A stretch of 64,000 nt of DNA from Aequorivita antarctica (GTDB taxonomy: Bacteria; Bacteroidota; Bacteroidia; Flavobacteriales; Flavobacteriaceae): NCBI RefSeq assembly GCF_007997155.1, contig NZ_VORT01000006.1, positions 124,001 through 188,000 of the forward strand, written 5' to 3'. Numbering within the stretch: the first letter of the stretch is position 1; each line of letters opens with the position of its first letter. Under the pieces are notes generated by a model. It searched no databases. It was not told where the DNA came from and was given only the letters and a program-made list of their open reading frames with translations. A program made the position numbers and the translations under genes. Shown in pieces: positions 18,956 through 35,859 of this stretch.

Positions 18956-18986
18956 TTTGATTAATGAAAAAAAAATTCTACATTTG
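18956..18986 (+). promoter_or_regulatory. Promoter of the str/S10/spc/alpha cluster
   Basis: TTTG (18956-18959), an exact 19-nt spacer and TACATTTG (18979-18986) match the Bacteroidetes consensus fully. It is the strongest promoter I find in the window, as fits ribosomal protein genes. The transcript should start near 18991-18994. Confidence 0.92.
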
Positions 18987-19416: not shown

Positions 19417-19427
19417 AAATGAAAACG

Positions 19428-19476
19428 GGTTAATAGTTAATATGTTTGTAGAACAACTAACAATTAGCGTTTAACC
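19428..19476 (+). promoter_or_regulatory. Structured rpsL-rpsG intercistronic region (possible S7 site)
   Basis: The 76-bp gap between rpsL and rpsG is long for this cluster. GGTTAA (19428-19433) can pair with TTAACC (19471-19476), with a possible inner TAGTT/AACTA pairing. In E. coli S7 binds the rpsL-rpsG intercistronic RNA to repress its own translation. That this is the same kind of site is inference from position. Confidence 0.35.
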
Positions 19477-19492
19477 ATTAACAAAACAACAA

Positions 19493-19969
19493 ATGAGAAA
19501 AAGACAGGCCAAAAAAAGACCCCTTTTACCAGATCCACGGTTTAATGACCAGTTGGTTACGCGTTTCGTGAACAACATGATGTGGGACGGAAAAAAGAGT
19601 GTGGCTTTCAAAGTTTTCTATGATGCTATTGACATTGTAGATGAAAAAAAACAAGACGAAGAAAAAACCGCGTTGGAGCTTTGGAAAGATGCACTTTCCA
19701 ATATTATGCCTCACGTAGAGGTGCGTAGTCGTAGAGTTGGTGGGGCAACCTTCCAAATTCCAAATCAAATACGTCCAGACCGTAAAATTGCAACCGCAAT
19801 GAAATGGTTGATTACCTATTCAAGAAAAAGAAACGAGAAATCCATGGCTGCAAAACTTGCAGGTGAGATTCTTGCAGCTGCCAAAGAAGAAGGTGCTGCT
19901 GTTAAGAAGCGTATGGATACCCACAAAATGGCAGAAGCTAACAAAGCATTCTCACATTTCAGATTCTAA
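19493..19969 (+). CDS. rpsG: 30S ribosomal protein S7
   Basis: A 158-aa primary 16S rRNA-binding protein that nucleates assembly of the 30S head. It shows the conserved [15 protein letters not shown] start, [14 protein letters not shown] and the C-terminal [21 protein letters not shown]. coli S7 represses the str operon. Gap to fusA is 3 bp, suggesting coupling. Confidence 0.98.
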
Positions 19970-19972
19970 AAA

Positions 19973-22108
19973 ATGGCACAAAGAGATTTAAAATACACAA
20001 GAAATATTGGGATTGCCGCGCACATTGATGCCGGTAAAACCACAACAACGGAGCGTATCCTTTTTTACACAGGGGTAAGTCATAAAATTGGTGAGGTTCA
20101 CGATGGTGCTGCAACCATGGACTGGATGGAGCAAGAACAGGAGCGTGGTATTACCATTACTTCGGCTGCTACCACTTGTAAATGGAAGTTCCCAATGGAG
20201 AACGCCGAGATACTTCCTGAAACAAAAGAATACAACTTTAACATTATAGATACTCCCGGCCACGTGGATTTTACCGTAGAGGTAAACCGCTCGTTGCGTG
20301 TTCTTGATGGCTTGGTGTTCCTTTTTAGCGCAGTAGATGGTGTTGAGCCACAATCTGAAACTAACTGGAGACTTGCTGACAACTATAAAGTGCCTCGTAT
20401 TGGTTTCGTTAACAAAATGGACCGTTCAGGAGCTAATTTTATGGAAGTTTGCCAACAAGTAAAAGATATGTTGGGTTCCAATGCGGTGCCAATTGTTTTG
20501 AATATCGGTGATGAGGAGAATTTCAAGGGAATCGTTGATTTGATAAAAAACCGTGCCGTTATTTTTCACGATGATTCATTTGGTGCTACTTTTGACGTTA
20601 TTGAAATTCCTGAAGAATTAAAAGCGGAAGCGAAAATGCTAAGAGGTAAACTTATTGAAGAAGTTGCCGCTTACGATGAAAATTTGCTTGAAAAATATAT
20701 GGAAGATGAAAATTCCATTACCGAGGATGAAATCCACGCTGCGCTTCGTGCTGCTGTTATGGATATGAGTATCATCCCTATGGTATGTGGTTCTTCATTT
20801 AAAAATAAAGGCGTTCAGTTTCTTTTAGATGCTGTGTGTCGTTACTTGCCTTCTCCAATGGATAAAGAAGGTATTATAGGTATTAATCCAGATACTGAAA
20901 AAGAAGAAATCCGCAAGCCGGATGTTACTGCTCCTTTTGCGGCTTTGGCATTTAAGATTGCTACAGATCCTTTTGTTGGTCGTTTGGCATTCTTTCGTGT
21001 GTATTCTGGTCGTTTGGATGCAGGTTCTTATATTTTGAACAATCGTTCGGGTAAAAAAGAACGTATTTCTCGTATCTACCAAATGCATTCCAATAAGCAA
21101 AATGCTATCGATTTTATCGAAGCTGGAGATATTGGAGCGGCAGTTGGATTTAAAGACATTAAGACTGGTGACACCATGTCTGATGAAAAACACCCAATTG
21201 TTTTAGAAAGTATGAACTTCCCTGATCCAGTAATTGGTATCGCGGTAGAGCCTAAAACAAAGGTGGATGTTGATAAATTGGGTATGGCTTTGTCAAAACT
21301 TGCCGAAGAAGATCCAACATTCCAAGTACGTACAGACGAAGCTTCTGGACAAACAATTATTTCTGGAATGGGCGAACTTCACTTAGATATTATCGTGGAC
21401 CGTTTGCGTCGCGAATTCAAAGTTGAAGTAAACCAAGGACAACCACAAGTTGAGTATAAAGAAGCTATCACAAAAGTTGCAGATCACAGAGAGGTTTATA
21501 AGAAACAATCTGGTGGTCGTGGTAAATTTGCTGATATCGTATTTACACTTGAACCATCTGAAGAAGGAAAAATTGGTTTGGAATTCGTAAATGCTGTAAA
21601 AGGTGGAAACGTACCAAAAGAATTTATCCCTTCTGTTGAAAAAGGTTTCAAACAAGCAATGGCCAATGGGCCGCTTGCAGGTTTTGAAGTTGACAGTATG
21701 AAGGTTACTTTAAAAGACGGATCGTTCCACCCTGTGGATTCTGATGCGCTATCTTTTGAGCTTGCTGCAAAAATTGGTTTCAAAGAAGTTGCCAAAAAAG
21801 CAGGGGCTGTAATCCTTGAGCCTATTATGAAACTTGAGGCGCTTACGCCAGAAGAGTATATGGGTGATATTGTTGGTGACCTTAACCGTCGCCGTGGTAC
21901 AATCACTAATATGAGTGACCGCGCCGGAGCAAAAGTTATCAAGGCTGAAGTGCCGCTTTCTGAAATGTTTGGTTATGTAACTACATTAAGAACATTGTCA
22001 TCAGGTCGTGCAACTTCAACTATGGAATTTTCACATTATGCAGAAACACCTTCTAACATTTCAGAAAGTGTAATCGCAGCAGCAAGAGGAACCGCTAACG
22101 TAAATTAA
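19973..22108 (+). CDS. fusA: Elongation factor G
   Basis: A 711-aa translational GTPase that drives ribosome translocation. The G domain shows AHIDAGKTT (16-24), DTPGH (93-97) and NKMD (147-150). Domains II-V follow, including [18 protein letters not shown] (domain III) and the C-terminal [19 protein letters not shown]. Length and str-operon position indicate the main EF-G, not a paralogue. Confidence 0.99.
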
Positions 22109-22116
22109 TTTCAGCA

Positions 22117-22422
22117 ATGAGTCAAAAAATAAGAATTAAACTAAAATCTTACGATCACAATTTGGTGGACAAATCTGCTGAAAAAATCGTAAAGACCGTG
22201 AAGAGTACAGGTGCTGTTGTAACGGGACCAATTCCTTTACCAACACACAAAAAGATATTTACAGTATTACGTTCTCCTCACGTGAACAAGAAAAGTAGAG
22301 AGCAATTCCAACTAAGTTCTTATAAAAGACTTTTGGATATCTACAGTTCTTCTTCAAAAACGATTGACGCTCTAATGAAATTAGAGTTGCCAAGTGGAGT
22401 AGAAGTAGAGATAAAGGTATAG
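22117..22422 (+). CDS. rpsJ: 30S ribosomal protein S10
   Basis: A 101-aa protein (NusE) of the 30S head and of the NusB-S10 antitermination complex. Conserved [16 protein letters not shown] start and [21 protein letters not shown] loop. It lies 8 bp after fusA, so the str and S10 blocks are joined. A 177-bp regulatory-looking gap follows it. Confidence 0.99.
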
Positions 22423-22454
22423 TGCTCTAACTGAAATAAATAGTTTCAGGTTAC

Positions 22455-22541
22455 ATGTCCCGAGCTGCGTGCGGAGGAAAAACGGAAAACAAAGTAACAT
22501 TCGGGATCGAATTTATTTTGATCCCGTTTGTTTTGAAATGA
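22455..22541 (+). other. 28-codon ORF spanning the rpsJ-rplC attenuator
   Basis: ATG at 22455 opens a reading frame of 28 codons ending in TGA at 22539-22541. The product would be MSRAACGGKTENKVTFGIEF followed by ILIPFVLK. It covers both the antiterminator and terminator arms. A GGAGG at 22473-22477 lies inside it, unusual in a lineage that rarely uses Shine-Dalgarno sites. Whether it is translated is unknown; it may be chance. Confidence 0.3.
22458..22534 (+). promoter_or_regulatory. Attenuator-like leader upstream of rplC-rplD
   Basis: A 10-bp stem (22502-22511 with 22517-22526, core CGGGATC/GATCCCG, loop TTTAT) is followed by TTTGTTTT and has terminator form. TCCCGA at 22458-22463 is complementary to TCGGGA at 22501-22506, which overlaps the 5' arm, so forming one helix excludes the other. 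GTTAC (22450-22454) with GTAAC (22494-22498) can close the leader fold. No promoter-like TAnnTTTG occurs in the gap. Confidence 0.65.
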
Positions 22542-22599
22542 ATATTGCGATTTTTCGCATATCAAATAAATAGTAGTAATAATCAATAAATAATTAAAT

Positions 22600-23211
22600 A
22601 TGTCTGGGTTAATTGGAAGAAAGATAGGGATGACCAGCATCTTTGACGAGAACGGAAAGAACATTCCGTGTACCGTTATTGAAGCAGGACCCTGTGTTGT
22701 CACCCAAGTCAGAACCATAGAGGTTGACGGGTACAATGCTCTTCAACTTGGTTTCGATGACAAGAAGACTGTAACTAAAGCTGCCGAAGGGCACGCTAAA
22801 AAAGCAGGAACCGTTGCAAAACGCAAAGTTGTTGAATTCAAGGGATTTGAAGAAAATTACAAATTAGGTGACACAATTACTGTGGAGCATTTTATCGAAG
22901 GTGAGTTCGTGGATATCGCGGGTACATCAAAAGGTAAAGGTTTTCAAGGGGTTGTAAAACGTCATGGTTTTGCTGGTGTTGGTCAAGCCACACACGGTCA
23001 GCACAACCGTTTGCGTGCACCAGGTTCCATTGGAGCTGCATCATATCCTGCGAGAGTATTCAAAGGAATGAGAATGGCAGGCCAAATGGGGAATGAGAGA
23101 GTAAAAGTTGAAAATTTAAGGATTTTGAAAGTAGTTCCTGAAAAGAATCTACTTGTGGTAAAGGGAGCTGTTCCTGGCCATAAAAATGCTTATGTAATGA
23201 TCGAGAAATAA
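22600..23211 (+). CDS. rplC: 50S ribosomal protein L3
   Basis: A 203-aa early 23S rRNA binder with a long loop reaching the peptidyl transferase centre. The conserved loop is [21 protein letters not shown] with the Gln that is N5-methylated in E. coli. First gene after the attenuator-like leader. Its stop overlaps the rplD start by 1 nt (TAATG). Confidence 0.98.
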
Positions 23212-23840
23212 TGAAGGTAGCTGTATTAGACATAAACGGAAAAGACACAGGTCGGAAAGTTGAACTTTCTGCAGATGTGTTCGGAATAGAACCTAACAAT
23301 CACGCTGTTTACCTTGATGTGAAACAATATCTTGCCAATCAAAGACAAGGAACTCACAAAGCAAAAGAACGTGCTGAGATCTCAGGATCTACCAGAAAGA
23401 TAAAGAAACAAAAAGGAACTGGTACTGCCCGTGCGGGTAGCATCAAGTCTGGTGTATTTAAAGGTGGTGGTAGAATGTTTGGACCACGTCCGCGTAGCTA
23501 CTCTTTTAAATTGAACAAAAACCTTAAACGTTTGGCACGTAAATCTGCCCTATCGATGAAGGCGAACGATAAAGCTATTTTTGTATTAGAAGACCTTAAT
23601 TTTGACGCTCCAAAAACCAAGAGTTTTACTGCGGTTTTGAACAGTTTAGGACTTAATGACAAAAAATCTTTATTTGTGTTGGGAGACTTAAATAATAATG
23701 TATATTTGTCCTCTCGCAATTTGAAAGGTACTGAAGTTATAACTAACTCACAATTAAGTACTTATAAAATTATGAATGCAAACAGTTTAGTGCTGTTTGA
23801 AGGTTCTTTGGAAGGAATTGAAACAAACTTAAGTAAATAG
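23211..23840 (+). CDS. rplD: 50S ribosomal protein L4
   Basis: A 209-aa 23S rRNA binder lining the exit tunnel. The tunnel loop is seen as [17 protein letters not shown], site of macrolide-resistance changes elsewhere; it looks intact. In E. coli L4 represses the S10 operon through the leader RNA by transcriptional and translational control, which makes the unusual leader two genes upstream worth noting. Confidence 0.97.
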
Positions 23841-23847
23841 AAACAAG

Positions 23848-24138
23848 ATGAACATCTTAATTAAACCTATAATTACGGAAAAAGCTACCAAGGCTGCTGA
23901 AGACAAAAATGTTTTTGGCTTTGTAGTAAACCCAAAGGCGAATAAGGTAGAAATCAAGAAAGCGGTGGAAGCTGCTTACGGAGTTTCTGTTGAAAAAGTT
24001 CGCACAATGAATGTCCGCCCTGATAGGAAGACCCGTTTTACAAAAACAGGTGTCCAAACTGGTAAAACGAACGCTTATAAAAAAGCAATCGTACAGGTGG
24101 CGGAAGGTGATACAATAGATTTTTACAGTAACATCTAA
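23848..24138 (+). CDS. rplW: 50S ribosomal protein L23
   Basis: A 96-aa protein at the exit-tunnel rim, docking site for trigger factor and SRP. Start NILIKPIITEKATKAAE and the loop VNPKANKVEIKKAVEAAYGV are typical. Gap of 7 bp from rplD. Confidence 0.97.
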   Translation: MNILIKPIITEKATKAAEDKNVFGFVVNPKANKVEIKKAVEAAYGVSVEKVRTMNVRPDRKTRFTKTGVQTGKTNAYKKAIVQVAEGDTIDFYSNI

Positions 24139-24164
24139 GGTAACTTAGATCTAATTAGACACAA

Positions 24165-24989
24165 ATGTCAGTAAGAAAATTAAAACCAATCACCCCGGGT
24201 CAGCGTTTTAGGGTTGTAAATGGTTTTGACGCCATTACAACCGATAAGCCGGAGAAGTCTTTACTTGCTCCGAACAAGAGATCTGGTGGTAGAAACAGTC
24301 AAGGAAAAATGACCATGCGCTACATAGGTGGTGGTCACAAGAAGAAATATCGAATTATTGATTTTAAACGCGACAAAGCGGGAATTCCTGCAACCGTTGC
24401 TAGTATTCAATACGATCCAAACCGTACTGCGTTTATCGCACTTTTGAACTATCAAGATGGTGAAAAGCGATATGTAATTGCACAGAACGGACTACAAGTT
24501 GGGCAAAACATCCTTTCCGGTGAAGCGGTAGCTCCCGAAATTGGAAACTCAATGCCCCTTTCAGCTATTCCATTAGGTACTATTATTTCCTGCATCGAGC
24601 TTCGTCCCGGTCAAGGAGCCATTATGGCGCGTAGCGCTGGTGCTTTTGCACAATTGATGGCCCGTGATGGAAAATATGCTACCGTTAAACTTCCTTCAGG
24701 TGAAACCCGATTTATTTTGGTAAACTGTATGGCTACCATTGGTGCTGTATCAAACAGTGACCACCAATTATTAGTATCTGGTAAAGCTGGTAGAAGCAGA
24801 TGGTTGGGTAGAAGACCACGTACAAGACCGGTAGTGATGAACCCTGTGGATCACCCAATGGGTGGTGGTGAAGGTAAATCTTCGGGAGGTCACCCACGTT
24901 CTAGAAAAGGTATTCCTGCAAAAGGTTACAGAACCCGTTCTAAAACGAAAGCGAGTAATAAATATATCTTAGAACGAAGAAAGAAATAA
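24165..24989 (+). CDS. rplB: 50S ribosomal protein L2
   Basis: A 274-aa core protein needed for subunit joining and peptidyl transfer. The conserved C-terminal [20 protein letters not shown] contains the functionally important His (equivalent to His229 in E. coli). Length and 26-bp spacing are normal. Confidence 0.98.
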
Positions 24990-24992
24990 GTT

Positions 24993-25271
24993 ATGGCAAG
25001 ATCGTTAAAAAAAGGACCGTTCGTTCATTACAAACTAGACAAGAAAGTTCAACAAAACGTTGAGGATAACAAGAAGACCGTAATCAAAACTTGGTCGCGA
25101 GCTTCTATGATTACTCCAGATTTTGTTGGCCAAACCATCGCAGTACACAACGGACGCCAATTTGTTCCTGTGTATGTAACAGAAAACATGGTTGGGCATA
25201 AACTAGGAGAATTTTCACCTACCAGATCATTCCGTGGTCACGCAGGTGCTAAAAACAAAGGTAAAAAATAA
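24993..25271 (+). CDS. rpsS: 30S ribosomal protein S19
   Basis: A 92-aa 30S head protein that partners S13. [15 protein letters not shown] start and [18 protein letters not shown] are conserved. Gap of 3 bp from rplB. Confidence 0.98.
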
Positions 25272-25277
25272 TAGGCC

Positions 25278-25688
25278 ATGGGAGTTCGTAAAAGAGAAAG
25301 AGCAGAAGGAATCAAGGAAGCAAAGAAGATAATGTACTTTGCCAAATTGAATAATTGCCCCACTTCACCAAGAAAAATGCGTTTAATGGCAGACTTGGTA
25401 CGTGGTGAGAAAATAGACAAAGCACTTAATATTTTGAAGTTTAGTTCAAAAGAATCTTCACGCAAATTGGAGAAACTACTTTTGTCTGCCATCAATAACT
25501 GGCAACAAAAGAACGAAGACGCTTCAGTAGAAGATGCAGATCTTTTTGTTAAGGAAATCCGTGTGGATGGTGGAACAATGTTGAAAAGACTTCGCCCAGC
25601 ACCGCAAGGCCGCGCACACAGAATTAGAAAGCGCTCCAACCACGTAACACTGGTATTGGCAGCTAACGATAACACACAAAGCAAGTAA
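25278..25688 (+). CDS. rplV: 50S ribosomal protein L22
   Basis: A 136-aa protein whose beta-hairpin lines the exit tunnel near L4. Hairpin seen as [20 protein letters not shown], the macrolide-resistance hotspot, intact here. The start at 25278 gives an N-terminal extension of about 20 residues ([17 protein letters not shown]), common in Bacteroidetes. Confidence 0.96.
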
Positions 25689-25692
25689 TTAA

Positions 25693-26421
25693 ATGGGACA
25701 GAAGACAAATCCAATCGGAAATCGCTTAGGTATCATTAGAGGTTGGGAATCCAACTGGTACGGAGGCAACGACTACGGCGACAAACTAGCCGAAGACGAT
25801 AAGATCAGGAAATATATCCATGCTCGTTTAAGTAAAGCTAGTGTGAGTAGAGTAATTATTGAGCGTACGCTTAAGCTTGTAACCGTTACTATAACCACTG
25901 CCCGTCCCGGTATCATTATCGGTAAAGGTGGCCAGGAAGTAGACAAGCTAAAAGAAGAGCTTAAGAAAATTACAGATAAAGATGTACAGATCAACATCCA
26001 CGAGATTAAAAGACCTGAGCTTGATGCATTTTTGGTAGCTGCGAGCATCGCACGCCAAATTGAAAGCCGTATTTCGTACCGTCGTGCAATAAAAATGGCG
26101 ATTGCAGCAACAATACGTATGAATGCTGAAGGTATTAAGGTTCAAATCTCAGGACGTTTGAATGGTGCTGAAATGGCACGTTCAGAATCTTACAAAGAAG
26201 GTCGTATTCCTTTATCAACTTTTAGAGCCGATATTGACTACGCTTTAGTTGAGGCACACACTACCTATGGTAGATTGGGTGTTAAAGTATGGATTATGAA
26301 AGGCGAAGTATATGGAAAGAGAGAGCTTTCTCCACTAGTTGGCCTGTCAACAGGCAAAAAGAGTGGTGGTAAAGGAGCTCCAGCAGGACGCGGTGGCAAC
26401 AAAGCACGTCGCAGAAAGTAA
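25693..26421 (+). CDS. rpsC: 30S ribosomal protein S3
   Basis: A 242-aa mRNA-entry-channel protein. The KH domain GXXG-type loop is seen in [20 protein letters not shown]. The C-terminal domain ends in a Gly/Lys/Arg-rich tail ([20 protein letters not shown]) longer than in E. coli. Gap of 4 bp from rplV. Confidence 0.98.
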
Positions 26422-26439
26422 TTTTTTAAATAAAAGAAA

Positions 26440-26859
26440 ATGTTACAACCTAAAAGAACAAAGTACCGTAAGCAAATGAAAGGCCGTATGAAAGGCGATG
26501 CCGGTCGTGGTAACCAGCTAGCATACGGAACCTTCGGTATAAAATCGTTGGAATCAGAATTTCTTACAGCAAGACAAATTGAAGCTGCACGTATCGCTGC
26601 TACCCGTTTTATGAAGAGAGAGGGTTCTATCTGGATTATGATTTTTCCAGATAAGCCAATCACCAAAAAACCTCTTGAAGTACGTATGGGTAAAGGTAAA
26701 GGTGCTGTAGAGTATTACGCTGCTGTAGTGAAGCCAGGAAGAATGCTTTTCGAAGTATCTGGTGTTACACTTGAAACAGCAAAAGAAGCACTGCGCCTTG
26801 CAGCACAGAAGCTTCCGGTTAAAACTAAATTTGTAATGTCTCGGGATTTCCAAGCATAA
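26440..26859 (+). CDS. rplP: 50S ribosomal protein L16
   Basis: A 139-aa protein near the A-site tRNA elbow. [19 protein letters not shown] start and [20 protein letters not shown] are conserved, including the arginine region hydroxylated in E. coli. Confidence 0.98.
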
Positions 26860-26871
26860 TTTTTTTGAACG

Positions 26872-27063
26872 ATGAAACAATCAGAAATTAAAAAAGCAAC
26901 AACGGCTGAACTTAATGAAGCATTCGCTGAATCAAGAAAGGCTTATTCAGACCTTAAAATGGCACATACCATTTCACCGTTGGAAAATCCAGTTCAACTA
27001 AGATCTCAAAGAAGGGTCATAGCAAGAATAGCGACCGAACTAACTAATAGAGAAGTGCAATAA
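26872..27063 (+). CDS. rpmC: 50S ribosomal protein L29
   Basis: A 63-aa two-helix protein at the tunnel exit next to L23. MKQSEIKKATTAEL start and RRVIARIATELTNRE end are typical. Gap of 12 bp. Confidence 0.95.
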   Translation: MKQSEIKKATTAELNEAFAESRKAYSDLKMAHTISPLENPVQLRSQRRVIARIATELTNREVQ

Positions 27064-27078
27064 TTGTACAGCTGAAAG

Positions 27079-27342
27079 ATGGAAGAAATTAAAAGAAACT
27101 TAAGAAAAGAACGTATAGGGATAGTAACCAGTAACAAAATGGACAAATCCATCGTAGTTGCAGAGGTGAAAAAAGTAAAACACCCTATGTACGGAAAGTA
27201 CGTAACGAAAACTAAAAAGTACGTTGCGCACGACGAAACAAACAACTGCAATGAAGGCGATACGGTAAGGATCATGGAAACACGTCCTTTAAGTAAAACC
27301 AAATGTTGGAGATTAGTAGAAATAATTGAAAGAGCGAAGTAA
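27079..27342 (+). CDS. rpsQ: 30S ribosomal protein S17
   Basis: An 87-aa OB-fold primary 16S rRNA binder. Motif [20 protein letters not shown] and the end [19 protein letters not shown] are diagnostic. Last gene of the S10 block; 2 bp to rplN, so there is no break between S10 and spc blocks. Confidence 0.97.
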
Positions 27343-27344
27343 TT

Positions 27345-27713
27345 ATGTTACAACAAGAATCAAGACTCAAAGTCGCAGATAATACCGGTGCTAAAGAAGT
27401 TCTTTGCATCCGTGTATTGGGCGGTACAAAAAGAAGGTATGCTTCTATTGGTGATAAAATTGTAGTTTCTGTAAAAGAAGCTACACCAAACGGGAACATT
27501 AAGAAAGGTGCCGTTTCTACAGCAGTGGTAGTACGTACTGTGAAGGAAATAAGAAGACCTGATGGTTCTTACATCCGTTTTGACGACAACGCCTGTGTGC
27601 TTTTAAACCCACAAGGGGAAATGAGAGGAACACGTGTTTTCGGCCCGGTAGCAAGAGAGCTTCGCGACAAGCAATTTATGAAAATAGTATCATTGGCACC
27701 AGAGGTGCTTTAA
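27345..27713 (+). CDS. rplN: 50S ribosomal protein L14
   Basis: A 122-aa protein at the subunit interface, near the factor-binding region. [18 protein letters not shown] start and the loop [17 protein letters not shown] are conserved; length is universal. Confidence 0.98.
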
Positions 27714-27714
27714 T

Positions 27715-28041
27715 ATGAAAACTAAGATGACAAAGCTTAAAATAAAATCAGGCGATACAGTAGTAGTTACTGCCGGAGACCACAAAGGTTCTGAAGGTAA
27801 AGTGATGAAAATACTCCTTGACAAAAACAAAGCAATCGTAGAGGGAGTTAACATGGTTTCGAAACATGAGAAGCCAAGCGCGAAGAACCCACAAGGTGGA
27901 ATCGTAAAAAAAGAAGCTCCTATCCATATTTCAAACCTTTCATTGGTTGATCCAAAATCTGGAAAAGCAACACGTGTAGGTTATAAAACTGAAAATGGTA
28001 AAAAAGTACGGTTTTCAAAACAATCGAATCAAGCAATATAG
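27715..28041 (+). CDS. rplX: 50S ribosomal protein L24
   Basis: A 108-aa KOW-motif assembly initiator ([20 protein letters not shown]). Start at 27715 adds a short MKTKMTKLK; a second Met at residue 5 could be the start instead. Only 1 bp separates it from rplN. Confidence 0.95.
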
Positions 28042-28043
28042 TT

Positions 28044-28595
28044 ATGGCATATTCACCAAGACTTAAAGAAGAGTACAAAAGCAGAGTGGTTAATACACTC
28101 ACTGACGAATTTGGTTACAAAAACGTCATGCAAGTACCAAAATTGGAGCGTATTGTTGTTTCCCGCGGTGTGGGTGCAGCAGTAGCTGACAAGAAACTTA
28201 TAGACTATTCAGTTGATGAGTTTTCAAAGATAACTGGGCAAAAAGCAGTTCCGACAAATTCTAAAAAAGACGTTGCAAACTTCAAACTTCGTAAAGGCAT
28301 GCCAATTGGTGTGAAAGTTACGTTGCGTGGAGAGCGTATGTACGAATTTTTAGACAGGTTGGTTACTTCGGCTTTGCCAAGGGTACGTGACTTTAACGGA
28401 ATTAAAGCTACCGGTTTTGACGGAAGAGGAAATTACTCTTTGGGAATTACTGAGCAAATTATCTTCCCCGAAATCGATATCGATAAAGTGAAGAAAATTG
28501 AAGGAATGAACATTACTTTCATCACTTCGGCAAAAACCGATAAAGAAGCGAAATCATTATTACAGGAATTGGGATTACCCTTTAAAAAGAACTAA
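28044..28595 (+). CDS. rplE: 50S ribosomal protein L5
   Basis: A 183-aa 5S rRNA-binding protein of the central protuberance. Conserved segments are [20 protein letters not shown] and the end [20 protein letters not shown]. Gap of 2 bp from rplX. Confidence 0.98.
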
Positions 28596-28598
28596 GAG

Positions 28599-28868
28599 AT
28601 GGCTAAAGAATCAATGAAGGCCCGCGAGGTTAAGAGACAAAAAACGGTATTGAAGTATGCTGCCAAACGCAAAGCTTTGAAAGAAGCCGGCGATTGGGAA
28701 GGTTTGCAAAAATTACCAAAAAATGCCTCGCCTGTACGTTTGCACAACCGTTGCAAATTAACCGGAAGACCAAGAGGGTATATGAGAACTTTTGGAGTTT
28801 CACGTGTAATGTTTCGTGAAATGGCAAATTCAGGGTTAATTCCAGGAGTGCGTAAAGCGTCTTGGTAA
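28599..28868 (+). CDS. rpsN: 30S ribosomal protein S14, zinc-free form
   Basis: An 89-aa S14 of the long C-minus type. It keeps [20 protein letters not shown] but only one Cys, so it lacks the CxxC pairs of the zinc form. A zinc-free S14, with zinc-free S4 and L36 in the same cluster, would spare zinc. An 87-bp structured gap follows before rpsH. Confidence 0.97.
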
Positions 28869-28935
28869 GAACAGATTTTTCTGTTCAAAAGAAAAAAGTA
28901 TAAATTGGTTGTAGGTTTGGAATAATCCAAAAACC
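28869..28935 (+). promoter_or_regulatory. Two hairpins upstream of rpsH (possible S8 site)
   Basis: GAACAG/CTGTTC (28869-28874, 28881-28886) form a perfect 6-bp stem right at the rpsN stop. A second imperfect stem pairs GGTTTGGA (28914-28921) with TCCAAAAACC (28926-28935). The gap of 87 bp stands out where most spacers are under 20 bp. E. coli S8 represses the spc operon at a site near rplE; a site just ahead of rpsH here is inference. Confidence 0.4.
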
Positions 28936-28955
28936 ACTTCCGCAAATTCAAATAA

Positions 28956-29357
28956 ATGAATACAGATCCAATTTCAGATTATCTAACGCGAGTTAGAAAT
29001 GCTGCAAAAGCCGGACATCGCGTAGTAGAGATTCCAGCTTCAAATCTTAAAAAGGAGATTACAAAAATCCTTTTTGATCAAGGTTACATTTTAAGCTACA
29101 AATTTGATGATGAAAGTACCCCACAAGGTATCATCAAAATTGCTTTAAAATATGACAAGATTTCTAAAGAATCAGTGATCAAGAAAATACAAAGAATTAG
29201 TAAACCAGGTTTACGTAAATACGCAAGTTCAACAGAGCTTCCTCGTATTTTGAACGGTTTGGGTATTGCCATTATATCTACTTCTTCAGGAGTAATGACT
29301 GGCAAACAGGCCAAAGCTCAAAATGTAGGTGGTGAAGTATTGTGTTACGTTTACTAA
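28956..29357 (+). CDS. rpsH: 30S ribosomal protein S8
   Basis: A 133-aa primary 16S rRNA binder (helix 21) and, in E. coli, the repressor of the spc operon. DPISDYLTRVRNAAKAGH start and the C-terminal ISTSSGVMTGKQAKAQNVGG are diagnostic. Confidence 0.98.
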   Translation: MNTDPISDYLTRVRNAAKAGHRVVEIPASNLKKEITKILFDQGYILSYKFDDESTPQGIIKIALKYDKISKESVIKKIQRISKPGLRKYASSTELPRILNGLGIAIISTSSGVMTGKQAKAQNVGGEVLCYVY

Positions 29358-29372
29358 AAAATAGACAAAGAA

Positions 29373-29915
29373 ATGTCAAGAATAGGTAAAAACCCGGTAG
29401 CAATCCCACAAGGAGTTACGGTTGAAGTAAAAGACAACGTAATTACCGTAAAAGGAAAATTAGGCGAGTTAACTCAGGAATTTTCTGATGTAACCGTGAA
29501 AGTAGAAGATGGACAAGTATTGGTTGAACGCCCTTCAGACTCTAAAGACCATACTGCAAAGCACGGTCTTTACAGATCTTTAATCAACAATATGGTTGAA
29601 GGCGTAAGCAACGGATGGTCTAAGCAATTAGAATTGGTAGGTGTGGGTTACCGCGCCAGCAACCAAGGACAGCGTTTGGATTTAGCTTTAGGATTTTCGC
29701 ACAATATCGTTTTGGACATCGCTCCAGAAGTGAAATTGGAGACAGTATCTGACAAAGGTAAAAACCCAATCATAAAATTAACTTCTCACGACAAACAATT
29801 GGTTGGGCAAGTTGCGGCAAAAATCCGCGCCTTCCGTAGACCAGAACCATACAAAGGAAAAGGTATTAAGTTTGTAGGTGAACAATTAAGAAGAAAAGCA
29901 GGTAAATCTGCATAA
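29373..29915 (+). CDS. rplF: 50S ribosomal protein L6
   Basis: A 180-aa two-domain protein by the sarcin-ricin loop. [19 protein letters not shown] start and [19 protein letters not shown] end are conserved. Gap of 15 bp. Confidence 0.98.
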
Positions 29916-29926
29916 CAAATAGAGTT

Positions 29927-30283
29927 ATGGCATTATCAAAGTACGAAAGAAGAGAGCGCTTGCGCATGCGAATCAGAAAAACGGTTGAGGGGACTGAAAG
30001 TCGCCCACGTTTAGCTGTTTTCCGCAGCAACAAAGAAATATACGCTCAGATTATTGACGATGTAAATGGAAAAACCATTACCGCTGCATCTTCAAGAGAT
30101 AAAGACATTGACGCTTCAAAAGTAAACAAAGTTGAAGCTGCAAAATTGGTGGGAAAAGCAATCGCAGAAAAAGCTGTTAAAGCTGGTGTAGACACCATTG
30201 CTTTTGACAGAGGCGGTTACTTATACCACGGAAGAGTAAAATCATTAGCTGAAGGTGCACGCGAAGGTGGCCTTAAATTCTAA
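29927..30283 (+). CDS. rplR: 50S ribosomal protein L18
   Basis: A 118-aa 5S rRNA-binding protein. [20 protein letters not shown] and the end [20 protein letters not shown] are typical. Gap of 11 bp. Confidence 0.98.
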
Positions 30284-30291
30284 GTCATATT

Positions 30292-30816
30292 ATGTATCGA
30301 GATTATAAAAACGTAGAATTAGTAAAACCAGGAGGTCTTGAATTGAAAGACCGTTTGGTAGGTGTACAACGTGTAACCAAGGTGACCAAAGGTGGTCGTG
30401 CCTTCGGATTTTCAGCTATAGTAGTTGTTGGAGACGAAAAAGGAGTGGTTGGACAAGGACTTGGTAAATCCAAGGATGTTGCCAGTGCAATAGCAAAAGC
30501 TATTGAGGATGCCAAGAAAAACTTGGTTCGTATCCCGCTTAACAAAGTAACTCTTCCGCACGAACAAAAAGGAAAATATGGTGGAGCCCGTGTAAACCTT
30601 CTTCCAGCTGCACCTGGTACAGGAGTTATTGCAGGTGGTGCTGTACGTGCCGTTTTGGAAGCAGTAGGAGTACACGATGTATTGTCAAAATCTCAAGGAT
30701 CTTCCAACCCACACAACGTGGTGAAAGCAACCTTTGATGCTCTTTTGCAAATGCGAAGTGCACAAACGGTGGCTAACCAACGTGGAATTTCACTTGAAAA
30801 AGTATTTAAAGGATAA
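30292..30816 (+). CDS. rpsE: 30S ribosomal protein S5
   Basis: A 174-aa protein affecting translational fidelity. The double-stranded RNA-binding segment includes the spectinomycin loop [12 protein letters not shown], without an obvious resistance change, and the conserved [19 protein letters not shown]. Confidence 0.98.
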
Positions 30817-30827
30817 ATATCAGAGCG

Positions 30828-31007
30828 ATGGCAAAAATTAAAGTAACAAAGGTAAGAAGCGTTATAAAACGCCCAAAAAACCAAAAGAGAATCATGGAAT
30901 CATTGGGTCTTCGCAAGATGAACCAAACTGTTGAACATGAAGATACGCCAAACATTCTTGGTATGATCAATAAAGTTAATCACTTAGTTTCTGTTGAAAC
31001 TAAATAA
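30828..31007 (+). CDS. rpmD: 50S ribosomal protein L30
   Basis: A 59-aa protein read directly from the sequence: MAKIKVTKVRSVIKRPKNQK at the start and GMINKVNHLVSVETK at the end. It is a single-domain L30 of normal bacterial length, in its usual place between rpsE (11 bp away) and rplO. It is short enough to be missed by ORF callers with a 60-aa cut-off. Confidence 0.97.
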   Translation: MAKIKVTKVRSVIKRPKNQKRIMESLGLRKMNQTVEHEDTPNILGMINKVNHLVSVETK

Positions 31008-31021
31008 GGACACACAAAATA

Positions 31022-31474
31022 ATGGATTTAAGTAACTTACAACCCGCCGCAGGATCGGTGAAAAATCAAGGCAAGCGAGTAGGTCGCGGACAAGGTTCCG
31101 GTAAAGGTGGTACAGCCACCCGCGGACACAAAGGAGCAAAATCACGTTCAGGATATTCCAAGAAAGTTGGATTTGAAGGTGGACAAATGCCCATACAACG
31201 TCGTGTTCCTAAGTTTGGATTTACAAACATCAACCGTAAGGAGTATAAAGGTATCAACATAGATACCCTACAGCAACTGGTTGACGACAAAAAAGTAAAA
31301 GATACCGTTGACTTTGAAACCTTATTTGGTTTGGGTCTTGCTGGAAAGAACGAAATGGTTAAGATATTAGGAAGAGGAGAAATAAAGGCAAAACTAAAAG
31401 TATCTGCGCACAAGTTTACTGCCTCGGCAAAAGAAGCTATTGAAGCTGCCGGAGGTGAAGTAGTAACATTGTAA
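31022..31474 (+). CDS. rplO: 50S ribosomal protein L15
   Basis: A 150-aa late-assembly protein. The glycine-rich N-terminus (KRVGRGQGSGKGGTATRGHK) and GFEGGQMPIQRRVPKFGF are diagnostic. Gap of 12 bp to secY. Confidence 0.98.
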   Translation: MDLSNLQPAAGSVKNQGKRVGRGQGSGKGGTATRGHKGAKSRSGYSKKVGFEGGQMPIQRRVPKFGFTNINRKEYKGINIDTLQQLVDDKKVKDTVDFETLFGLGLAGKNEMVKILGRGEIKAKLKVSAHKFTASAKEAIEAAGGEVVTL

Positions 31475-31486
31475 CAAGAGATAAGG

Positions 31487-32830
31487 ATGAAATTTATCGA
31501 AACCTTAAAAAATGTTTGGAAAATAGAAGAGCTGCGTAACCGCATTATTCTAACCTTAGGAATGCTATTGGTGTACCGTTTTGGAGCACAAGTAGTACTT
31601 CCGGGGATTGATGCAGATATGCTAGCCCAATTTGCAGGTAAATTTGATGCCGGTGGTATTGGTGGATTGCTGAACGCATTTACAGGAGGGGCTTTCGCCA
31701 ACGCTTCTGTCTTTGCATTGGGTATTATGCCATATATTTCTGCTTCCATCGTTGTACAGTTAATGCAAATTGCTGTGCCTTACCTTCAAAAATTACAGAA
31801 AGAAGGCGAAAGTGGCCGTAAGAAAATCAATCAGATTACCCGTTGGTTAACCATTGGTATCTGTTTGGTACAAGCACCAAGCTACCTTGCAGGTCTTCCC
31901 GCAATGGGAGTTCCAGCAGAAGCTTTTGTAATGGGACAGAGTGTTATGTTCTATGTTTCTTCAGTAATTATACTTGTAACAGGAACAATATTCGCAATGT
32001 GGTTGGGTGAAAAAATCACCGATAAAGGTATTGGTAACGGTATTTCCATACTTATTATGGTTGGTATCATTGCACGTATGCCACAATCATTTGCACAAGA
32101 ATTTGTTTCAAGAGTAATGGAATCAAACGGTGGTTTGATTATGATTCTTATTGAATTGGTTATCTGGTTTGTAATTATCCTATTGTCAATTATGTTGGTA
32201 ATGGCGGTGCGAAAGATACCTGTGCAATATGCAAGAAGAACAGCAAGCGGTGGTTATGAAAAGAATATTTTTGGGGCACGCCAGTTCATTCCATTAAAGC
32301 TGAACGCTTCTGGGGTAATGCCAATCATTTTTGCGCAGGCAATTATGTTTGTACCATCAGCCGTTGCAAGTCTTTCTGAAAGCGATTTCGCACAAGGAAT
32401 TCGGGCTACTTTTAGCGATATTTTTGGACTGTGGTATAATGTAGTATTTGCAATATTGATTATAATATTCACATATTTCTATACTGCTATTACGGTTCCA
32501 ACCAATAAAATGGCTGATGATCTTAAACGTAGCGGTGGTTTCATTCCAGGTATTAAGCCAGGATCGCAAACCGGCGAATATTTGGATCGAATAATGTCTC
32601 AAATTACACTTCCGGGATCTGTGTTCTTAGCACTAATTGCTATTGCTCCAGCATTTGCGGTGAAGTTGTTGGGAATCCAGCAAGGTTGGGCATTGTTTTA
32701 CGGAGGTACATCACTATTGATTATGGTTGGTGTGGCTATCGATACAATGCAACAAGTAAACTCGTATTTATTGAACCGTCATTATGATGGTTTGATGAAA
32801 AGCGGCAAAAATAGAAAGGCAGTAGCATAA
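31487..32830 (+). CDS. secY: Preprotein translocase subunit SecY
   Basis: A 447-aa channel of the Sec translocon with ten predicted membrane helices. Seen are the plug region after helix 1 ([20 protein letters not shown]), the [15 protein letters not shown] lateral-gate helix and the cytoplasmic loop with the PVQYARR motif. Position in the spc block is standard. adk and map, which often follow secY, are absent; infA comes 2 bp later. Confidence 0.99.
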
Positions 32831-32832
32831 TT

Positions 32833-33048
32833 ATGGCAAAACAAAGCGCAATAGAACAGGATGGAAGTATAGTGGAAGCACTATCAAACGCAATGTTCCG
32901 TGTAGAATTGGAAAATGGCCACGTAGTAACCGCACACATTTCTGGTAAAATGCGAATGCACTATATTAAATTGTTACCCGGAGATAAAGTGAAATTGGAA
33001 ATGAGCCCTTACGATTTAAGTAAGGCAAGAATAACATACAGATATTAA
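32833..33048 (+). CDS. infA: Translation initiation factor IF-1
   Basis: A 71-aa OB-fold factor that blocks the A site during initiation. [20 protein letters not shown] start and [18 protein letters not shown] end are conserved. After it, a 47-bp spacer holds a small hairpin GAACC/GGTTC (33055-33059, 33064-33068). Confidence 0.98.
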
Positions 33049-33095
33049 TACAACGAACCTCACGGTTCATTGAACACTAAATAAACAAGAGACAG

Positions 33096-33212
33096 ATGAA
33101 AGTTAGAGCATCCGTAAAGAAAAGAAGTGCCGACTGCAAGATTGTTCGCAGAAAAGGCAGATTATATGTAATTAACAAAAAGAACCCAAAGTTCAAACAA
33201 AGACAAGGATAA
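33096..33212 (+). CDS. rpmJ: 50S ribosomal protein L36, zinc-free form
   Basis: A 38-aa protein read from the sequence: [20 protein letters not shown] at the start and [12 protein letters not shown] at the end. Zinc-type L36 has three Cys and one His; here only Cys14 remains and the other positions are Ser, Asn and Phe, so it should not bind zinc. It is 3 bp from rpsM. Confidence 0.97.
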
Positions 33213-33215
33213 GTT

Positions 33216-33590
33216 ATGGCAAGAATCGCAGGTGTAGATATCCCGAAGCACAAAAGGGGTGTAATCGCGTTAACGTATATCTTCGGAATCGGTAAGAGCC
33301 GAGCTGAAGACATACTGAAAAAAGCCGAGGTTAACGAAGACAAAAAAGTAAATGAATGGAACGATGATGAAATCGGTGCTATTCGTGACGCTGTATCGTC
33401 TTTCAAAATCGAAGGTGAATTACGTAGTGAAGTTCAATTAAGTATTAAACGCTTAATGGATATTGGTTGTTACAGAGGTATTCGTCACAGATCGGGTCTT
33501 CCATTAAGAGGACAACGTACTAAGAATAACTCTCGTACAAGAAAAGGAAAACGTAAAACTGTTGCTAACAAGAAAAAAGCAACTAAATAA
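33216..33590 (+). CDS. rpsM: 30S ribosomal protein S13
   Basis: A 124-aa 30S head protein contacting P-site tRNA and the 50[21 protein letters not shown] start and [20 protein letters not shown] are conserved. First gene of the alpha block. Confidence 0.98.
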
Positions 33591-33601
33591 AACCTAGAGT
33601 T

Positions 33602-34003
33602 ATGGCAAAGACATCGTCTAAGACTACAAAAACAGTTAAAAAACGCAAGGTTAATGTTGAATCTGTTGGTGAAGCGCATATTACTGCTTCCTTCAACAAC
33701 ATTATCGTGTCGTTAACAAATAAGAACGGAGATGTTATCTCTTGGTCCTCAGCCGGTAAAATGGGTTTCCGTGGATCTAAGAAAAACACTCCTTATGCAG
33801 CTCAGTTGGCATCAGAAGATTGTGCAAAAGTTGCACACGATGCTGGTTTACGTAAAGTAAAAGTTTATGTAAAAGGGCCAGGAAACGGTAGAGAATCTGC
33901 AATACGTTCTATCCACAATGCAGGAATTGAAGTAACCGAGATTATCGACGTTACCCCAATGCCGCACAACGGATGTCGTCCTCCTAAAAGAAGAAGAGTT
34001 TAA
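33602..34003 (+). CDS. rpsK: 30S ribosomal protein S11
   Basis: A 133-aa platform protein near the mRNA exit. [20 protein letters not shown] and the end [18 protein letters not shown] are diagnostic. An 89-bp gap to rpsD follows. Confidence 0.98.
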
Positions 34004-34022
34004 TTAATAATAAATATCAATC

Positions 34023-34076
34023 TGAAGGATAAAAAACTAAAGGATTAACGTAAGACCTTAATTTAGTTTTCCTTCA
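34023..34076 (+). promoter_or_regulatory. Hairpin upstream of rpsD (possible S4 site)
   Basis: TGAAGG (34023-34028) pairs with CCTTCA (34071-34076) and AAAACTAAA (34033-34041) with TTTAGTTTT (34062-34070), with a 4-nt bulge on the 5' side. This 15-bp stem fills the rpsK-rpsD gap. S4 autoregulates the alpha operon in E. coli and rpsD in Firmicutes through its own mRNA. The position fits, but the structure has no T-run and its role is inferred. Confidence 0.5.
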
Positions 34077-34092
34077 TAACCTAAAATTAGAA

Positions 34093-35712: not shown

Positions 35713-35721
35713 TAGATTAAC

Positions 35722-35779
35722 GATTTCAGATTTATGATTTCATATTGTTGAAGTTGTAAATCTGAAATCAACTATCAAC
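35722..35779 (+). promoter_or_regulatory. Two competing hairpins between rpoA and rplQ
   Basis: A perfect 13-bp inverted repeat (35722-35734 with 35757-35769, sequence GATTTCAGATTTA) overlaps a second one in which GTTGAAGTTG (35747-35756) pairs with CAACTATCAAC (35769-35779). Both cannot form fully together. No T-run follows, so it is not a standard terminator. Confidence 0.5.
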
Positions 35780-35859
35780 AAACTTTAATAAAATTAACCC
35801 ATCATAATTTGCTCTCCGATGAACGGATTTTGTAGCAAGATGATGAAAACAAAAATGTC

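Follow-up and report, generated by a model that had tools for sequence, protein, structure and literature searches.

The ribosomal protein cluster of Aequorivita antarctica and its relatives among the Flavobacteriaceae carries RNA elements ahead of rplC, rpsH, rpsD and rplQ, which we consider likely to be separate autoregulatory leaders, with ligands, repression and attenuation that we infer from comparative sequence analysis. The cluster, about 17 kb long, lies in a 64,000-nucleotide (nt) stretch of contig NZ_VORT01000006.1 (assembly GCF_007997155.1, positions 124,001 to 188,000), hereafter the window, and its gene calls and NCBIfam matches give the order rpsL-rpsG-fusA-rpsJ-rplC...rpsN-rpsH...rpsK-rpsD-rpoA-rplQ. 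Conservation of the elements, their position, their covarying pairs, the layout of the S8-binding core in the rpsH leader and the spacing to the start codons were directly observed. In the proposed mechanism, the rpsH hairpin would imitate the S8 site of 16S rRNA helix 21 and be bound by surplus uS8, which would stabilise a helix whose end lies 14 nt from the rpsH start, block initiation and, by coupling, spread the block to downstream genes. The rpsD and rplQ hairpins, which share this layout at distances of 16 and 15 nt, respectively, from the start codon in the window, would answer to uS4 and uL17, and the rplC element, in which a terminator-like hairpin would compete with an alternative helix, would act as an attenuator sensing uL4. 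We further propose, more tentatively and as slightly less likely than not, that the cluster of the Flavobacteriaceae falls into blocks under feedback control, divided by four or more independent RNA sensors (a uL4 attenuator and sensors of uS8, uS4 and uL17), the uS8 sensor being a 16S-mimicking leader that evolved at another place and on another scaffold than the Escherichia coli spc operator, and the uL4 sensor a two-state antiterminator/terminator switch.

In the passages of PMC10931766 that treat the subject, phylogenetic work on spc autoregulation is said not to have moved forward, and the conserved S8-core hairpin before rpsH offers a directly testable answer for the Flavobacteriaceae. 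The rplC and rplQ elements are added candidates, each new family showing another way in which a ribosomal protein (r-protein) may sense its own surplus. The S4 leader is already known in print; the rplC, rpsH and rplQ elements are outside Rfam 15, matching none of its families, and in scans of the window cluster (E <= 10) and of one relative, L035 (E <= 3), no match besides S4 overlapped any element. Among the open-access papers that our literature searches listed, we saw none describing the elements at rplC, rpsH or rplQ and no protein-RNA experiment on any of the elements treated here.

Long gaps of the cluster and their conservation among relatives

All cluster proteins tested (10/10) scored above the cut-offs of NCBIfam models bearing the names expected. 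A first-pass annotation of this DNA had singled out five long gaps, whose lengths were confirmed (rpsL-rpsG, 76 nt; rpsJ-rplC, 177 nt; rpsN-rpsH, 87 nt; rpsK-rpsD, 89 nt; rpoA-rplQ, 147 nt). Six of the 31 spacers exceed 40 nt, the remaining 25 being at most 26 nt long, and the sixth long gap, infA-rpmJ (47 nt), was missing from that list. The rpoA-rplQ gap (35713-35859) lies beyond the interval that the annotation covered (19417-34092) and had been assigned no regulator; it, too, holds a conserved element. Inverted repeats had also been reported in the gaps; they are present, and folding against 200 dinucleotide shuffles places most of them beyond chance, with z-scores of -3.23 (rpsL-rpsG), -2.75 (rpsJ-rplC), -3.49 (rpsN-rpsH), -6.38 (rpoA-rplQ) and -3.39 (infA-rpmJ), the rpsK-rpsD gap being the least clear (-1.89, with 9/200 shuffles folding equally well). 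Coordinates given here are those of the window, and the leader elements, their helices, the rpsL-rpsG gap and the promoter-like site upstream of rpsL are all on its forward (+) strand.

Spacers were measured by tblastn in 141 records, comprising 60 clusters, a further 80 from named genomes and the window, with at least two genomes represented twice (L010/L063 and L028/L095). Median gaps in relatives were 163 nt for rpsJ-rplC, 91 nt for rpsK-rpsD, 68 nt for rpsN-rpsH, 61 nt for rpoA-rplQ and 25 nt for rpsL-rpsG. Among the four gaps that the annotation had tied to the regulators of the E. coli operons, three (L3/L4, S8 and S4) are thus long across the family and the S7 gap is short (130 clusters). 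Its suggestion of a separate RNA element before each regulator is partly supported: strongly for S8, for L3/L4 with an inferred ligand and for S4 as already predicted in print, but not for S7 beyond the genus.

Covariance models of the rplC (R1), rpsH (R2) and rplQ (R3) elements matched 162, 131 and 113 of 199 Flavobacteriaceae genomes, respectively, R3 with one match in each and R2 with two in a single genome. Position was judged relative to rplE, for listed matches that shared a contig with an rplE of known place, and proved conserved, every placeable match lying on the expected side and strand. Among the 150 R1 matches listed, 105 were placeable and 105/105 lay 5503-5656 nt upstream of rplE on the same strand; of the 132 R2 matches listed, 100 were placeable and 100/100 lay on the rplE strand, 819-1018 nt downstream; for R3, 85/85 placeable rows were correctly sited. 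R1 and R2 were also searched in an order-level sample of 148 genomes (21 Flavobacteriaceae and 127 others by listing). R2 was found in 19/21 family genomes and in 0/127 outside the family, where R1 matched 10/127 genomes at 24.6-35.8 bits (places unchecked), against at least 48 bits in the family. Judged by the genus of the named loci, the carriers of the rpsH hairpin include Flavobacterium genomes.

Aligning the elements across the Flavobacteriaceae, as had been suggested with the annotation, revealed covarying pairs in all three. Sequences for the first alignments were chosen by regular expressions containing conserved letters, so that letter conservation is partly due to selection; this motif-based choice has less influence on the covarying columns, the genome-wide counts and the counts in unfiltered gaps. 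The sequence-only MAFFT alignments A1-A3 (rplC, rpsH and rplQ) kept 71/87, 77/96 and 61/68 of the distinct sequences extracted, after manual thinning and trimming of the ends, and the model-fitted alignments held 92, 97 and 77 loci, chosen mainly for holding the motifs. Covariation was evaluated in the manner of R-scape: parsimony substitutions on a tree of 13 r-proteins were replayed at random columns, all column pairs were scored by a G-test with average-product correction, and pairs with E < 0.05 were taken as significant. In the MAFFT alignments 7/7 significant pairs fell inside the proposed helices (rplC 2/2, rpsH 4/4, rplQ 1/1), and in the model-fitted ones those inside the structure were 4/5 for rplC, 4/4 for rpsH and 1/1 for rplQ. 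Pair counts of the three elements, compared with shuffles and with slid partners, likewise speak for these structures.

These results bear on the possibility that the hairpins in the gaps are generic and have nothing to do with the binding of r-proteins, being terminators, dispersed palindromes or hairpins that serve processing or stability. The rplC hairpin is indeed terminator-like, and both a palindrome upstream of the rplQ element (35722-35769) and the hairpin of the S7 gap vary freely between species. The elements themselves, however, keep loop and bulge letters together with covarying pairs, and each occurs as one strong copy in nearly every carrier genome, at a single operon position, which makes this explanation improbable.

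The rpsH leader and 16S helix 21

In most clusters the rpsN-rpsH gap is closed by a shared hairpin, reading UGGNNN, a bulged A, GGUU, a variable apical stem, AAAA, CC and NNNACC. The R2 match of the window (28893..28955, 73.0 bits) comprises an outer helix (28907-28912/28936-28941), a bulged A at 28913, the pairs G28914-C28935, G28915-C28934, U28916-A28931 and U28917-A28930 with an AA bulge read as 28932-28933, and an apical stem (28918-28921/28926-28929). RNAalifold recovered this hairpin from the plain MAFFT alignment (77 sequences), with compensatory changes in 9/11 pairs, and 87.7% of the cells in 94 distinct rows are paired, compared with 73.3% after columns are shuffled and 31-53% when partners are slid. 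Three of the four significant pairs belong to the apical stem and one to the outer stem, and the model-fitted alignment returned the same four. Between the end of the helix and the start codon lie 13-16 nt in 96 sequences, and exactly 14 nt in 77/96 of them and in the window. Upstream in the same gap, folding of the window also predicts an extra 5' hairpin (28869..28886), in a form unseen, by eye, outside the genus.

As described in the relevant parts of PMC4176348, the S8 site includes a base triple A595-(A596-U644), a second triple (G597-C643)-U641 and, at 642, an invariant A in contact with S8; an STS stretch of the protein stacks on the equivalent of this A642. The 596-644 pair differs in T. 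thermophilus, and natural sites are written with N641. To this we add the pairing U598-A640, according to our own reading of the sequence. The core is present in helix 21 of the window genome's own 16S rRNA, and the window S8 protein has an STSSG stretch resembling the published STS. The leader resembles helix 21 and the E. coli spc S8 site in its bulged A, its two following pairs (the second G-C), the N-A bulge of the 3' strand and the U-A pair. Among 96 aligned leaders, the bulged A, G-C at 597-643, A at the 642 equivalent and U-A at 598-640 are found in 96/96, G-C or A-U at 596-644 in 93/96, and the whole core in 93/96.

The core was then counted in gaps of at least 45 nt taken without any motif filter: it occurs in 98/106 rpsN-rpsH gaps versus 17/2120 shuffles of those gaps, in 13/467 from six other gaps (0.4-5.4% in shuffles of these) and in 18/1421 window tiles. 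A conserved and covarying leader with the S8-core layout and a fixed spacing is thus strongly supported by the sequences, and this leader is probably a uS8 operator acting by 16S mimicry. Its site differs from that of the E. coli spc operator, which lies at the rplE start; the flavobacterial element stands before rpsH, and the rplX-rplE gap of the window measures 2 nt. This suggests an independent evolution of rRNA mimicry. According to PMC10931766, where it touches on the point, the Flavobacteriaceae do not use Shine-Dalgarno interactions.

It may also be that the elements are genuine r-protein leaders, some of which respond to ligands other than those named here (the rplC element might sense uL3, say, or the rpsH element a different spc protein), a reading compatible with ours for the remaining elements. 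Eckert and Weinberg point out in their discussion of such leaders (PMC7247131) that the ligand is poorly predicted by the gene that follows, and for rplC nothing decides among uL3, uL4 and others; in the case of rpsH, the match to the S8 core is particular to the rpsN-rpsH gap. We regard such a substitution of ligands as a minority possibility.

The rplC, rplQ and rpsD elements

The rplC element of the window (R1 match 22453..22545, 86.5 bits, the next best in the genome scoring 31.0 bits) begins with a hairpin P1 (UCC...GGA, 22458..22478), drawn from alignment A1 and pair counts and followed by a conserved AAAAACGG up to 22485. Downstream, the terminator-like hairpin T (22502..22526), followed by GUUUGUUUU, competes with an alternative helix S1 (22490..22520), in which 22490-22497 pairs with 22513-22520. 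A regular expression for ACAUGUCC, a hairpin, GGAAAAACGG and a further hairpin recognised 89/133 rpsJ-rplC gaps. Both significant pairs of the MAFFT alignment lie in the structure, as do four of the five in the fitted alignment, the fifth being a neighbour within P1, and 99% of cells in the T stem pair. The T loop pairs better with the upstream A-rich stretch of its own species (7.44) than with that of other species (6.43; standard deviation 0.10; maximum of 200 shuffles 6.69; kinship ignored), and this pairing would be incompatible with the inner T stem.

We read the rplC element as a terminator/antiterminator switch that probably attenuates transcription of rplC and the genes behind it. The most likely ligand would be uL4, a choice made solely on the analogy to the S10 leader of E. 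coli, which PMC10931766, as far as its account of S10 extends, presents as responding to uL4 through attenuation. Like it, the rplC element would act on rplC and rplD and has a terminator-like hairpin; unlike the S10 leader, which lies upstream of rpsJ, it stands between rpsJ and rplC. A leader-peptide attenuator starting at the conserved AUG of AUGUCC would also account for the conservation of this AUG and of the terminator-like hairpin, yet the reading frame is unconserved, running for 2-55 codons and stopping after two in 25/86 cases; we therefore rejected it as extremely unlikely.

In the 3' part of the rpoA-rplQ gap, relatives share a hairpin CAUCAU-AW-UUUGCU...AGCAAGAUGAUG, matched by R3 in the window at 35797..35859 (66.0 bits), with a helix formed by 35801-35805/35840-35844 and 35808-35813/35834-35839. 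The helix ends 11-18 nt before the start codon in 77 sequences and 15 nt in the window. Its natural candidate ligand is probably uL17. Published L17 elements (a leader in Actino- and Proteobacteria, a downstream element in Firmicutes) are likewise associated with rplQ, and the Rfam L17 families had no match in the window, nor in seven relatives at gathering scores. A 21-bp palindrome (35722-35769) occurs upstream of the rplQ element; of the 20 genus members measured, 15 (the window among them) have an rpoA-rplQ gap of 133-163 nt, and in the remaining five the gap, at 65 nt, leaves no room for the palindrome.

The rpsD leader corresponds to the S4-Flavobacteria r-leader (RF03141), predicted in 2020 by Eckert and Weinberg in the set of leaders reported in PMC7247131. 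The hairpin of the window (34023..34076, core 34034-34069), which ends 16 nt before the start codon, occupies the same gap upstream of rpsD-rpoA-rplQ and carries the AAGG...CCUUAAUU (AAGG/CCUU) core. It differs from RF03141 in lacking the CG/C internal-loop letters and in its score of 24.2 bits, under the gathering threshold of 35.2, which 6/7 relatives scanned pass. By regular expression, 136 rpsD gaps divide into 29 with the window-type variant, 90 canonical and 17 with neither. This hairpin probably answers to uS4.

Several observations weigh against reading these elements as r-protein sensors. In the rpsH leader, unlike helix 21 and the spc site, position 641 is A in 94/96 leaders and U, as in rRNA, in 2/96, and the 596-644 equivalent is usually G-C instead of A-U (G-C in 89, A-U in 4 and A-C in 3 of 96); the rule admitting A or G at 596 was set after the motif had been seen, and A-U alone would pass 4/96. 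The register of the AA bulge was chosen to fit, four As facing UU, and RNAalifold places the bulge two bases further in; covariation cannot place it, since the surrounding pairs hardly vary, and the chosen register lowers our overall confidence. P1 of the rplC element has a single significant pair, as has the whole rplQ element, in the latter because its helix is nearly invariant. At least six Ts within the 9 nt after the T hairpin are found in only 62/89 gaps (seven in the window), the U-run being weak in 27/89. R1 is unmatched in ten sampled genomes of one genus and has a second match in 14 genomes, three of which scored at 27.7-33.7 bits. Finally, R1, R2 and R3 lack a match in 37, 68 and 86 of the 199 genomes, counts that are upper bounds on absence owing to the strict filters of these many-genome searches.

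Promoter-like sites and the remaining gaps

A promoter-like site, TTG-N19-TACATTTG, precedes rpsL at 18957..18986, and the pattern TTG-N17-22-TAnnTTTG is found in this place in 127/129 clusters, TAnnTTTG being given as the sigma-A consensus of Flavobacterium psychrophilum in the promoter description of PMC9723704. The idea that the long gaps house internal promoters instead of RNA regulators draws on the relatives, in which promoter-like sites occur in 19/133 rpsJ-rplC, 10/138 rpsN-rpsH, 13/136 rpsK-rpsD and 3/137 infA-rpmJ gaps. Yet none is present in the long gaps of the window, in 136 rpoA-rplQ gaps (0/136) or in 130 rpsL-rpsG gaps (0/130), and the RNA elements are far commoner, so that promoters are a very unlikely explanation for the gaps. 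One long transcript is accordingly plausible for the window, as its promoter pattern would have it, and is not general, because some relatives have promoter-like sites within the gaps. All named Flavobacterium loci with an rpsJ-rplC gap (19/19) are without the rplC motif by pattern, and 13/19 have a promoter-like site there; L068, L072, L092, L096, L100 and L102 are such loci, without the motif and with TTG...TAnnTTTG in the gap. Another promoter-like site lies within rplD (23679-23708), and a reversed control of the same stretch gave no match.

The rpsL-rpsG gap (19417..19492, z -3.23) contains a hairpin seen in the genus alone. Like the str operon of E. coli with its S7 site, this genus has a long rpsL-rpsG gap with a hairpin; unlike it, the family has a median gap of 25 nt, only 51/130 clusters reaching at least 45 nt, and the long gaps share no common motif by eye, with nothing similar in other genera. 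Members of the genus mostly retain the flanking sequences AATGAAAACGG and TTAACAA on either side of a hairpin of variable sequence, whose arms pair better with their own partners (9.42) than across species (7.74; standard deviation 0.36; maximum of 500 shuffles 9.00; 19 distinct sequences), in a comparison from which L019 was dropped and in which the window, L011 and L013 parsed badly. MAFFT with RNAalifold on 21 genus sequences gave no consensus fold for this gap. A family-wide S7 leader was rejected on the short median gap and the lack of a shared motif and consensus fold; control by S7 at the level of the genus is possible, though not supported.

The infA-rpmJ gap (33049-33095) holds a CGAACC/GGTTCATTG hairpin, found in most members of the genus whose gap exceeds 40 nt. 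One locus titled Rhodobacteraceae, L116 (CALSPC010000003.1), carries a flavobacterial-looking r-protein cluster with an RplE 82% identical to that of the window, and is perhaps mislabelled or misbinned. Lastly, the rpsM-rpsK gap of relatives shows a conserved GAATCTGYYTGAAAT..RGTYTAGGATTC within imperfect TTAGT repeats (e.g. L035:15723-15754 and L148:1501-1532); absent from the window, it is present in 47/199 family genomes, the reversed pattern being found in none, and is possibly a candidate uS11 or uS13 leader.

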